Part shown: positions 7,110 to 25,584 of the stretch, one piece after another
How the letters are laid out: every line of letters starts with the position of its first letter
Numbering within the stretch: the stretch's first letter is position 1
From: Dehalococcoidia bacterium
GTDB taxonomy: Bacteria; Chloroflexota; Dehalococcoidia; Dehalococcoidales; UBA3254
DNA length: 34,940 nucleotides
Reading direction: 5' to 3'
NCBI GenBank assembly: GCA_025361145.1
Contig: JANYAV010000008.1
Coordinates: 1-34,940 of the forward strand
Translations under genes and position numbers: made by a program
The notes under the pieces: model-generated
Told to the model about the DNA's origin: nothing
Databases searched by the model: none
The model's input: only the letters and a program-made list of their open reading frames with translations

Positions 7110-7877
7110 TTATTTTAAGGTCAATACGGGGAAAAACACCTGCCAGGCCAAGAGGGCCTTGGCAGTGAGACTGAGAATGATATAAACTTTTTCGCCAAAT
7201 AGATAATCCCGCCAGGGTCCCACTTTCTTATACTGTAATATCATATTAACGGCGAAGCAGTTAAAGAAAACGAATAGCGAGGCCACTATCCCGTAAACGA
7301 AACCGGGGGGAGACGCTTTAAGGCCAGGAGCCCAGACATATATCACAATGGCAATCCAGGGAATAATGCCTGCGAAACTACCAAACCAGAATGATAGTAG
7401 GTTTGGCTTACCGGGTTTTTCATATTTTTCTTGCAACCCACCGAAGAGAATCATGCTGGCATTAACGCCGAAGATGGCAATTAAAGCGGCTATATCGCTG
7501 ATGCCTGTTATTTGGGAGATCAAGACTATCATTATGGATGAACTGAAGAAGTACTCAATCCAGCGTCCGTAGTTACGGCTCTGCAGTAGATTGCGTTTGT
7601 ACCAGGGGAAGACTAGAGGTGACGCAATAAGCAGCAGCGCTGCGGCTGAAATAGCCAGAAAGGTAAAAACACCCCAGCCCGTGGGGATATTAAATAGATG
7701 GTGAAGAGTAGGCGCAGTACCGGGAGGGCCTTCCATAAAAGTTGCAGTGACAGGAAGAGCGAACTTGTTAGTCAGAACCGCGATCATAATCGCCTGGATT
7801 GCTAAAATTAAACCTACGATGATGTTCCAGGTACGTAAACTCTTAAGTCGCCGTTCCAAAGATTTATCAATGGCCAT
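7110..7877 (-). CDS. heR: Heliorhodopsin
   Basis: Seven-helix retinal protein of the heliorhodopsin class, 255 aa, the usual length. Signature stretches are RWIEYFFSSSIMIVLI in helix C with Glu108 (the Schiff-base counterion), AALIAIFGVNASMILFG in helix D, and SLTAKALLAWQV in helix G. There Lys240 is the expected retinal attachment site and Ser236 lies four residues before it. These correspond to E107, S237 and K241 of the founding member. By my remembered alignment, the two conserved histidines near the chromophore (H23 and H80) are Leu25 and Leu81 here. The type I rhodopsin pump motif is absent. A strong AAGGAGG site precedes the ATG, and the gene has an apparent promoter with a palindromic operator. 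It follows nfnB and precedes tkt and rpiB. Heliorhodopsins have very slow photocycles and are thought to be sensory or regulatory; the partner is unknown. Confidence 0.93.
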   Translation of the reverse strand: MAIDKSLERRLKSLRTWNIIVGLILAIQAIMIAVLTNKFALPVTATFMEGPPGTAPTLHHLFNIPTGWGVFTFLAISAAALLLIASPLVFPWYKRNLLQSRNYGRWIEYFFSSSIMIVLISQITGISDIAALIAIFGVNASMILFGGLQEKYEKPGKPNLLSFWFGSFAGIIPWIAIVIYVWAPGLKASPPGFVYGIVASLFVFFNCFAVNMILQYKKVGPWRDYLFGEKVYIILSLTAKALLAWQVFFPVLTLK

Positions 7878-7900
7878 AAATTCCTCCTTAACGTAATATC

Positions 7901-7914
7901 TGGGTAATTACCCA
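7901..7914. promoter_or_regulatory. Palindromic operator candidate over the heliorhodopsin start site
   Basis: TGGGTAATTACCCA is a perfect 14-bp palindrome placed directly after the -10 box and before the ribosome-binding site. Its centre coincides with the expected transcription start (about 7909). A dimeric repressor bound here would block initiation. Confidence 0.55.
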
Positions 7915-7915
7915 T

Positions 7916-7945
7916 ATACTACGCAGGAGGATCAGTTAAAGTCAA
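7916..7945 (-). promoter_or_regulatory. Promoter of the heliorhodopsin-tkt-rpiB unit
   Basis: On the minus strand TTGACT (7945-7940), an 18-nt spacer and TAGTAT (7921-7916) form a plausible sigma-70 promoter in the nfnB-heR gap. It could drive heR and read on into tkt and rpiB independently of the nfn genes. Confidence 0.55.
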
Positions 7946-13178: not shown

Positions 13179-13589
13179 TCAAGCAGCTCTACTGGTCTTG
13201 TTGAGCATTGAACATAAGTAGATACGGCCGGCCATAGCTTCTCTGATGGCTTTAATTATTTCTTCCGGTGGAGATTCTTTAAGCACGTAACATTTTACGC
13301 CAAACCTTAGGGCTTGTGAGACATAGGTGTCGCTATTCTGCATAGACAAAATCACGATCTGTGTCTTGGATCCGCGGTTATTCAGACAGAATGCAACCTC
13401 CAAACCATTCATGCCCGGCATAGCCATATCCAGAACCAGAATATCCGGTCTGATTTTTTCGACTAGACTGACAGCCTCCAGTCCATCTTCCACTTCACCC
13501 ACAATATTAAAATCAGGTTCAGCACTGAAGAGTATCTTTAGACTTTTACGAACTAGATTATGATCATCAGCAAGAACAATAGTAATCAC
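13179..13589 (-). CDS. Receiver-only response regulator (truncated NarL-type)
   Basis: A 136-aa protein with a complete CheY-like receiver: acidic pair in VLADDH, phospho-acceptor Asp54 in LVLDMAMPG, conserved Lys in VLKESPPEE. It ends in the linker right after GRIYLCSMLNK, where a NarL/FixJ protein would continue into its LuxR-type DNA-binding domain. I find no helix-turn-helix remnant in the 120 bases after the stop. It closely resembles the next gene upstream (13778-14428), including the ESPPEE and KAIRE stretch, so it may be a truncated duplicate or a single-domain regulator acting by phosphate competition or protein contact. It starts with GTG and has only a weak ribosome-binding site. 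Confidence 0.75.
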   Translation of the reverse strand: MITIVLADDHNLVRKSLKILFSAEPDFNIVGEVEDGLEAVSLVEKIRPDILVLDMAMPGMNGLEVAFCLNNRGSKTQIVILSMQNSDTYVSQALRFGVKCYVLKESPPEEIIKAIREAMAGRIYLCSMLNKTSRAA

Positions 13590-13777: not shown

Positions 13778-14428
13778 TTAATTCTGACCGGGGATGAGCC
13801 CTCTTTGGATGGCAAATTGAATTAACTGAGAATGATTATGTAAGCTAAGCTTCCGCATGAAATTTGTACGATGAGTTTCAACAGTTCTAGGACTTATATA
13901 AAGACGGGTAGCTATCTCGTTATTGGTGCTCCCCTGCGCAGCTAATTGTAAGATTTCCCGTTCTCGGGTAGTTAACTGGTCATATGAATCCATGGTCTGT
14001 ATTTCTGTTTTTTGAGTATAAGCCTCGATGGCTCTTTCAGTTAATGGGGAACTCAAATAACGCCGCCCACTATATACTTCACGAATCGCCTTTACCAATT
14101 CTTCCGGTGGAGATTCTTTAAGAATATAAGCTCTGGCTCCGGAACGCAGAGCCTCCAGTACATAAGCCTCATTGCTATGCATTGAAAGAATTATAATTCC
14201 CAATTTCGTATTCTTCTTGGTTATCTGCCTGGTTACTTCTAAGCCATTGATTCCAGCCATCATAAGATCCAATACCAATACGTCTGGTTGAAGTTGCTCA
14301 ACCATTTTTACAGTTTCAAAGCCATCTCCAGCTTCACCCACGACTTTTAAATCTGGCTCTACGCTTAATAAAGCTTTGAATCCTTTTCTTACTATCTGAT
14401 GATCGTCAGCCAAAATTATTTTAATCAT
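13778..14428 (-). CDS. NarL/FixJ-family response regulator
   Basis: Two-component DNA-binding regulator, 216 aa. The receiver domain has the ADDH acidic pocket, Asp54 in LVLDLMMAG and Lys in ILKESPPEE. A linker leads to a C-terminal LuxR-type helix-turn-helix (LTTREREILQLAAQG, then NNEIATRLYISPRTVETHR). Such regulators pair with HisKA_3-type kinases like the one at 32504-34657, but no kinase is adjacent here, so the partner is not known. The open frame extends to a TTG at 14479, but that TTG is part of a TTGACA -35 box. ATG at 14428, with GAAAG in front, gives the normal receiver start MIKIILADDHQ. Confidence 0.9.
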   Translation of the reverse strand: MIKIILADDHQIVRKGFKALLSVEPDLKVVGEAGDGFETVKMVEQLQPDVLVLDLMMAGINGLEVTRQITKKNTKLGIIILSMHSNEAYVLEALRSGARAYILKESPPEELVKAIREVYSGRRYLSSPLTERAIEAYTQKTEIQTMDSYDQLTTREREILQLAAQGSTNNEIATRLYISPRTVETHRTNFMRKLSLHNHSQLIQFAIQRGLIPGQN

Positions 14429-14449
14429 AATACATCTTTCGGTTAAGTA

Positions 14450-14479
14450 ATTCTCACCCACTATACGACCCTTTGTCAA
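14450..14479 (-). promoter_or_regulatory. Promoter of the NarL-type regulator
   Basis: Minus-strand TTGACA (14479-14474), an 18-nt spacer and GAGAAT (14455-14450), giving a leader of about 20 nt to the ATG at 14428. It is arranged back to back with the asd promoter. Confidence 0.5.
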
Positions 14480-24063: not shown

Positions 24064-25584
24064 TTGAATATATTACTGGTTTATCCCCAGTATCCAGATA
24101 CATTTTGGAGTTTTAAGCACGCACTAAGATTTGTTCTGCGTAAAGCTGCCTTCCCTCCATTAGGCCTTTTAACCGTTGCAGCGATGCTTCCCAAAGAATG
24201 GAATAAAAAACTGGTAGATATGAATGTCCATTCTTTAACTGATAAAGATATAAAATGGGCTGATTATGTTTTTATAAGTGCCATGGTGGTCCAAAAGAAT
24301 TCGGTTAACGAAGTAATCCACAGGATCAAGAAACTGGGTGTAAAAATTGTAGCCGGTGGTCCGCTCTTTACTACCGAACCGGAGCAATTTGAAGAGATTG
24401 ATCATCTGGTTTTAAATGAAGCCGAGATTACCTTGGCGCCATTTTTAAACGATCTTGCGGCGGGTGAAGCCAAACACCTATATAGCACTACCGAACATCC
24501 TGCGATTACGTCTACCCCCACCCCTCTTTGGTCGCTGGTCAAGATGAGAAACTACTCTTCTATGGCCCTCCAGTATTCCCGCGGTTGTCCTTTTAATTGC
24601 GAGTTTTGCGATATCACTGTTTTGGATGGTCGCATCCCTCGCACCAAAAACACTTCCCAACTATATGCTGAGATGGAAGCTATCTTTAACCAGGGATGGC
24701 GCGGCACTTTATTTATTGTCGATGATAATTTTATCGGCAATAAAAGCAAGCTAAAAGATGAAATTCTACCCGCGTTAATCGAATGGCAGGCCAGAAGGAA
24801 TCATCCTTTCTCGTTGCTTACCGAGGCCTCGATTAACTTGGCGGATGATGAAGAATTAATAAACATGATGACCAAGGCTGGATTTAATAAGGTTTTCATT
24901 GGTATTGAAACACCCAATGAAGCTAGTTTAACCGAATGCAGCAAGAACCAGAATACTAACCGTGATCTGGTGGCAGCTGTAAAAAATATCCATAACCACG
25001 GCATAGAAGTCATGGCTGGCTTTATCGTAGGTTTTGATAACGACCAAGCTGAGATCTTTAAATCTCAGATTAATTTTATTCAAAAAAGCGGTATAGTAAC
25101 AGCTATGGTTGGTCTGCTAAATGCTCCTCGTGGAACTCGCCTGTATCAACGTATGAAAAAGGAAAACCGACTCGTAAAACAGGAGTTTACCGGTGACAAT
25201 ATGGATTTTTCTCTTAACTTCGAACCCAGGATGGACAAGAAAAAGCTAATCGAGGGTTACCACAACGTCCTAGATACCATCTATTCTCCCAAACATTATT
25301 ATGAGCGGGTCAAAACTTTACTCAAGGAATATAAACCCCGCCGCCACCGCACTCAGACACCCAGTATTCCGACCTCTTTTAGACTATTTTGCGGACTGGC
25401 CAACTGCGTTTGGTTTGTCGGTATCAGAGAAAAGGGCCGAAAGTATTACTGGAGGATGTTCGCCTCAACCCTCTTTCTTAGACCTCGCACCTTTCCTATG
25501 TTTGTCACTCTAGCGGTTTATGGCTACCATTTCCGCAAAGTGATTAGTAAATGCGTTGAAGCCCCTGTTGCGAGTTTATTATAG
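24064..25584 (+). CDS. B12-binding radical SAM protein with DUF4070 domain
   Basis: A 506-aa enzyme. An N-terminal cobalamin-binding Rossmann domain (about 1-140; PPLGLLTVAAMLP, ADYVFISAMV, AGGPLF) precedes a radical SAM barrel with the [4Fe-4S] motif CPFNCEFC (Cys175, Cys179, Cys182) and FIVDDNFIGNK. A C-terminal DUF4070-type region starts near EFTGDNMDFSLNFEP. This architecture is shared with the hopanoid methylase HpnP and many uncharacterised anaerobe proteins. A methylation or C-C bond reaction is likely, but the substrate cannot be read from sequence. It starts with TTG at 24064 after AGGAG (6 nt) and follows mfd by 84 nt, possibly on the same transcript. A bidirectional terminator follows. 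Confidence 0.9.
   Translation: MNILLVYPQYPDTFWSFKHALRFVLRKAAFPPLGLLTVAAMLPKEWNKKLVDMNVHSLTDKDIKWADYVFISAMVVQKNSVNEVIHRIKKLGVKIVAGGPLFTTEPEQFEEIDHLVLNEAEITLAPFLNDLAAGEAKHLYSTTEHPAITSTPTPLWSLVKMRNYSSMALQYSRGCPFNCEFCDITVLDGRIPRTKNTSQLYAEMEAIFNQGWRGTLFIVDDNFIGNKSKLKDEILPALIEWQARRNHPFSLLTEASINLADDEELINMMTKAGFNKVFIGIETPNEASLTECSKNQNTNRDLVAAVKNIHNHGIEVMAGFIVGFDNDQAEIFKSQINFIQKSGIVTAMVGLLNAPRGTRLYQRMKKENRLVKQEFTGDNMDFSLNFEPRMDKKKLIEGYHNVLDTIYSPKHYYERVKTLLKEYKPRRHRTQTPSIPTSFRLFCGLANCVWFVGIREKGRKYYWRMFASTLFLRPRTFPMFVTLAVYGYHFRKVISKCVEAPVASLL

Follow-up and report, generated by a model that had tools for sequence, protein, structure and literature searches.

A heliorhodopsin from a Dehalococcoidales genome belongs to a branch with leucines in place of both outer-face histidines

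A heliorhodopsin (HeR) encoded by a Dehalococcoidales genome was found to carry leucines, Leu25 and Leu81, at the positions of His23 and His80 of HeR 48C12, and to belong to a clade of Leu/Leu proteins in which the scored retinal site is otherwise almost entirely conserved. The gene lies in a stretch of 34,940 nucleotides, referred to here as the window. It is the Leu/Leu branch that is new; the HeR class and the presence of HeRs in Dehalococcoidales are already known. A HeR subfamily lacking the His/His pair appears to be undescribed in the literature searched, a search that excluded the study of Chloroflexi HeRs by Chazan et al. (2022). On balance, we lean towards the view that the window HeR is a photosensor that uses scavenged retinal and has a rewired, truncated proton relay at its outer face.

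The window ORF encodes a real heliorhodopsin, the type-3 class of rhodopsins, which are light-absorbing membrane proteins that bind retinal. An original prediction made from the sequence had called it as such and proposed two checks, a family HMM search and an overlay on a solved heliorhodopsin, both of which bore out the call. The protein matched Pfam PF18761 at 321.9 bits (cut-off 26.7) and the NCBIfam equivalog NF038020, "heliorhodopsin HeR," at 317.6 bits (cut-off 100), and the search of Pfam and NCBIfam profiles returned no second family. Against the PDB, phmmer returned heliorhodopsins only (48C12, 255 bits, E 6e-75; TaHeR, 176 bits). An AlphaFold2 model (pLDDT 91.5), in which strands 40-47 and 57-65 form part of a long A-B loop, had HeRs as its ten best Foldseek matches, with 48C12 (PDB 6su3) at TM 0.91 and rmsd 1.5. 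The helix C, D, and G motifs quoted in the prediction are all present, and the residues it named as retinal lysine and counterion, Lys240 and Glu108, align with Lys241 and Glu107 of 48C12. The SxxxK motif of TM7 reads SLTAK and includes Lys240. When the protein was tested as a type-1 microbial rhodopsin, its profile match was to HeR alone, and type-1 structures reached TM 0.5-0.66 at 9-15% identity. The mark of ion-transporting viral HeRs of the V2HeR3 type, a Trp replacing the TM6 Phe (PMC9448325; Phe206 in 48C12), is also absent from the window HeR, which has Phe205. With a cytoplasmic N-terminus assumed, Lys and Arg residues number 15 inside vs. 3 outside, and this charge distribution predicts the inverted topology, with the N-terminus in the cytoplasm.

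The window HeR is about 52% identical to 48C12 (PDB 6su3, 6uh3) and shares its GPPG A-B loop, counterion, retinal lysine, and cytoplasmic hydrogen-bond network. In the alignment, N18, Q28, S77, Y93, R105, W106, E108, Y109, S112, E150, E229, S236, K240, and W245 are kept, and both chains are unchanged apart from the replacement of H23 and H80 by Leu. The window HeR further differs from 48C12 by the type-specific changes A70F, F103G, and I167F. TaHeR (PDB 6is6, 7u55) has the same key residues and superposes at TM 0.87-0.88, but it is 43% identical, retains both histidines, and its A-B loop is polar where the window HeR has GPPG. The codons for residues 25, 81, 108, and 240 were verified directly against the window sequence (Table 1).

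Table 1. Positions of the heliorhodopsin gene, its key codons, and its upstream elements in the window.
Feature	Position	Strand	Basis or remark
Heliorhodopsin CDS, Leu/Leu (H23L/H80L) type	7110..7877	-	255 aa, seven helices; profiles, alignment, model
AAG codon, Lys240, retinal Schiff-base lysine (48C12 Lys241)	7158..7160	-	Alignment and sequence
GAG codon, Glu108, Schiff-base counterion (48C12 Glu107)	7554..7556	-	Alignment and sequence
CTG codon, Leu81 at 48C12 His80 position	7635..7637	-	Alignment and sequence
TTA codon, Leu25 at 48C12 His23 position	7803..7805	-	Alignment and sequence
AGGAGG ribosome-binding site of HeR gene	7883..7888	-	Sequence
Perfect 14-bp palindrome TGGGTAATTACCCA	7901..7914	.	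Just downstream of -10 box
Promoter-like site TTGACT-18-TAGTAT (TTGACTTTAAC-N-TAGTATATGGGTAA)	7916..7945	-	Conserved upstream of HeR

In 48C12, His23 and His80 are the proposed proton-accepting group. The original description, QM/MM work, and subsequent papers gave them a central role, whereas one structure paper judged them not essential (PMC6951262). Among 119 HeRs, sampled from Chloroflexota and for their similarity to the window protein and so not amounting to a census of all HeRs, 65 were His/His (48C12 and TaHeR included), 53 were Leu/Leu (the window HeR and 52 sampled relatives), and none was mixed; one truncated copy without the first position went unscored, leaving 118. In a maximum-likelihood tree built without the two His/Leu columns, the Leu/Leu sequences formed a single clade (ultrafast bootstrap 100, SH-aLRT 99), which was present in all 200 bootstrap trees examined and with which an earlier quick tree agrees. 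The base of the clade consists of several actinobacterial branches (Thermoleophilia and other Actinomycetota), and since the Dehalococcoidales Leu/Leu sequences nest within this grade (supports 95/90, 99/91, and 100/93), the tree points to acquisition of their HeRs by transfer from Actinomycetota. The A70F, F103G, and I167F changes (48C12 numbering) are likewise specific to the clade. The HeR of Dehalogenimonas alkenigignens (DaHeR), a member of the same order, has already been expressed with retinal and absorbs at 539 nm (PMC7807009). Because its polar FDEI loop resembles the FDET loop of His/His HeRs in genus g49, DaHeR appears to lie outside the Leu/Leu clade.

Within the Leu/Leu set, Ser236, Tyr109, the lysine, the counterion, and almost every other residue scored in the retinal site and network show no variation, and the retinal Lys and counterion Glu are kept in the His/His sequences scored as well. 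Purifying selection acts on the HeR gene: every pair that yielded a dN/dS value fell at 0.03-0.11, except one at 0.26. Retention of Lys240 and Glu108 at such low dN/dS argues that the retinal site of Leu/Leu HeRs is in use. It might be supposed that these are ordinary HeRs of the His/His kind, in which the Leu pair is a neutral adjustment of color or kinetics without wider meaning; in most conditions, the H23A, H23S, and H80A variants of 48C12 do retain a pigment at 550 nm (PMC6951262). However, the two positions change jointly, with each group completely fixed among the 118 scored sequences, making this explanation improbable. Broken copies were also encountered in some relatives: a stop or contig ends interrupt the HeR genes at G046:C110 and G036:C55/C15, and the one in G046 is possibly a pseudogene.

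The host is a Dehalococcoidales MAG (Chloroflexota) of 1.70 Mb, 96% complete and 0.12% contaminated, of which the window is contig C22. The nearest named relatives of its HeR come from Dehalococcoidia/Dehalococcoidales MAGs (91% identity to the HeR of locus L021), in agreement with the Chloroflexota origin originally predicted. The housekeeping character ascribed to the region was likewise upheld, as genes for a sigma factor, superoxide dismutase, transketolase, RpiB, DnaE, Mfd, and GlpX are present. The window also contains adjoining response regulators, the first a receiver domain alone (13179-13589) and the second with a LuxR DNA-binding part (13778-14479), and a radical SAM protein of B12-binding type (24064-25584) that matched several families weakly, the best at 84 bits and well short of the cut-offs. 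The suggestion that the host is an anaerobe holds as likely rather than proven, since its genome gave no match to heme-copper oxidase, yet an Fe/Mn superoxide dismutase gene lies 3 kb upstream of HeR. No reductive dehalogenase was found in the host genome.

HeR was carried by 26 of 101 genomes searched and was absent from the sole other genome of the host's genus, indicating a patchy accessory gene. Carriers include closed genomes of 1.4-1.9 Mb with 19-30 reductive-dehalogenase matches (G009, G045, G063, G074, and G083), which, judged by size and gene content, look like Dehalococcoides and Dehalogenimonas. The original prediction regarded a HeR in such an organism as physiologically puzzling. 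Given its frequency in the order and the prior expression of a Dehalogenimonas HeR (PMC7807009), its presence in the host is not surprising; what is puzzling is rather that a retinal pathway is missing and that both histidines are gone, neither of which was raised there. A scan of viral contigs gave no HeR relative. A HeR gene on a Lactococcus petauri plasmid of 10.5 kb (NZ_CP141705.1) shows that small plasmids can be vehicles for such genes. The patchy distribution and the probable transfer from Actinomycetota might suggest a non-functional recent acquisition or a binning contaminant. We consider this extremely improbable in light of the strong purifying selection, the low contamination of the genome, a GC content (0.455) similar to that of the flanks, and the presence of both a promoter-like site and a ribosome-binding site.

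The HeR ORF is uninterrupted, begins with ATG, and has AGGAGG upstream. On the same strand, a GltA/NfnB-type pair lies upstream (gap of 99 bp) and transketolase-rpiB downstream (gap of 75 bp). AbHeR is known to bind and regulate an adjacent glutamine synthetase (PMC9529153), and this precedent, together with the short gaps, would fit a photosensor that directly regulates GltA/NfnB or transketolase/RpiB. Both HeRs lie near nitrogen-metabolism enzymes, although the window has a glutamate-synthase-like GltA in place of glutamine synthetase. We find such regulation quite improbable, because neither pair of neighbors was seen beside HeR at any other sampled locus (L021 and L046 differ on both sides), and because a promoter-like site shared with L021 and L046 stands between gltA and HeR. 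In these two loci, a closely similar TTGACTTTAAC...TA(A/G)TAT occurs upstream of HeR despite different neighboring genes. Since the site recurs with HeR alone, the gene is most likely its own transcription unit, and an operon with GltA/NfnB or transketolase was rejected. In the host genome (1.70 Mb, of which about 1.697 Mb was read), this composite pattern was found a single time. A generic promoter scan gave no more hits than shuffled sequences did, and it is therefore conservation that lends the site its weight. The palindrome TGGGTAATTACCCA could be an operator or could have arisen by chance; as the operator of a regulon it was rejected, since no second exact copy was found in the genome and L021 and L046 lack it.

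In relatives, HeRs of both types often lie beside genes for DegV, C1, DUF2177, DUF1295, SOUL, MsrA, or Staygreen, an enrichment that is suggestive only, since these families were noticed after looking at the HeR loci. The association with DegV was reported earlier (Chazan et al., 2022, as cited in PMC9385722), as was DUF2177 as a HeR neighbor (PMC11109279). The HeR-linked DegV is orthologous among these loci, including those of Leu/Leu relatives, at 53-72% identity to the L027 copy vs. about 30-40% for other paralogues. C1 is a family of five-helix membrane proteins of ~178 aa (L027:11687-12220, L021:10500-11030, L112:7783-8292, and others; alignment A4), with nothing above cut-off in Pfam or NCBIfam and no significant fold match; a TSPO-like identity was set aside, as the matches were weak (TM about 0.5, E > 1) and are not counted as evidence. 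C1 and HeR occur together in 14 genomes where 5 were expected (p = 3e-6; by genus p = 2e-4; ancestry uncorrected), representing 14 of the 20 C1 carriers. In genus g49, His/His and Leu/Leu HeRs pair with the same partners: one genome (G269) has DUF2177-HeR(His/His)-DegV-C1-DUF1295, and another (G183) has HeR(Leu/Leu)-DegV-DUF1295-DUF2177. Together with a third locus (L161 in G269, L158 in G183, and L160 in G347), they present the same DegV/DUF1295/DUF2177 cassette with either HeR type, as if the rhodopsin had been swapped and its partners left unchanged.

Several genes near HeR are related to tetrapyrroles, namely Staygreen, of the chlorophyll Mg-dechelatase family, in Dehalococcoidales (L052:4455-4976, L011/L025, and L049), SOUL (L021, L046, and G003), and TspO (L028 and L033). 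SOUL was found in 3 of the 101 genomes, all of them HeR carriers and the host among them. TspO was rejected as a general partner, since it adjoins HeR in two closely related loci and occurs in 5 of 26 HeR genomes vs. 7 of the other 75 (p = 0.16). Unlike its DegV-associated relatives, the window HeR has no DegV beside it, nor DUF2177, DUF1295, or C1. The host genome lacks C1, DUF2177, DUF1295, and the HeR-linked DegV orthologue altogether (best DegV 41%), so these partners are dispensable there; it has only SOUL and distant DegV paralogues, none adjoining HeR.

Retinal supply was examined in the host and 100 relatives. Blh/BCD (beta-carotene dioxygenase) gave no match above cut-off in any of them, RPE65-type oxygenase was not found in the 101 genomes, and the CrtI family was above cut-off in none; all 101 gave weak, uninformative FAD-oxidoreductase matches to CrtI. 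Squalene/phytoene synthase (SQS_PSY) was present in two of the 101, the host not among them. In genomes reached via HeR loci, Blh was found in 0 of 27 Leu/Leu vs. 6 of 21 His/His genomes (Fisher p = 0.004; confounded by ancestry), and the six positive genomes demonstrate that the Blh model works. Without recognized genes for making retinal, either retinal comes from outside or the HeR works without it. The titles of sequence records place some carriers in groundwater (L033 and L041) and in a 400-m deep cast (L034), habitats that are probably dark and anoxic, so light may never reach several of them.

The main alternative to the photosensor is a light-independent role, in which the protein would be a dark membrane, lipid, or redox scaffold, or would bind some hydrophobic ligand in place of retinal, with the leucines marking a lost photochemical relay. 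The missing retinal pathway and the probable darkness of the habitats speak in its favor, as do the lipid-type neighbors (DegV, DUF1295) in relatives and a His relay whose single loss was not reversed in any sampled sequence. On the other hand, drift of Lys240 and Glu108 would be expected had retinal never been bound, and these residues, like almost all of the scored retinal site, are invariant. We regard this role as possible, though unlikely. Unlikely, too, is the stronger proposition that Leu/Leu HeRs at large gave up the proton relay and became lightless, perhaps retinal-free, membrane, lipid, or redox components of anaerobes that make no retinal.

For the photosensor that we favor, we infer retinal scavenging, photocycle behavior, and signal output, with the proton route and the output modeled on published work on 48C12. 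The window HeR would be loaded with retinal taken from the surroundings and act as a light sensor. Light would isomerize the retinal on Lys240, and the Schiff-base proton would be handed to Glu108 and to water molecules in the cavity around the Schiff base. In the 48C12 model, the proton moves on to His80/His23, swinging Trp246 on the outer face. With two leucines replacing this relay, the proton should stay in the cavity, on a cytoplasmic branch (Asn18-Tyr93-Glu229-Arg105-Glu150) that is fully kept. This would make the photocycle slow and bias the signal toward the cytoplasm, and the output would probably be protection of membrane and redox systems from light plus oxygen, as suggested by the partners of HeR in relatives (DegV, DUF2177, DUF1295, SOUL, TspO, and MsrA). 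Loss of the histidines need not abolish the pigment, since 48C12 H23A and H80A keep theirs and TaHeR H23F/H82F still forms M (PMC9726877). Against the photosensor stand the lack of a retinal source among the genes searched, the probably dark and anoxic habitats of several carriers, the patchiness of the gene, and the lack of a partner beside it.

As close Leu/Leu or His/His carriers include closed genomes that appear to be Dehalogenimonas and Dehalococcoides, culture work looks possible. The missing retinal biosynthesis in these anaerobic-type Dehalococcoidales raises the question of whether heliorhodopsin needs light at all. The role of His23 and His80 as the proton-accepting group of HeRs is disputed, and a clade that swapped both histidines for leucine while retaining the rest of the scored retinal site constitutes a ready-made natural test.
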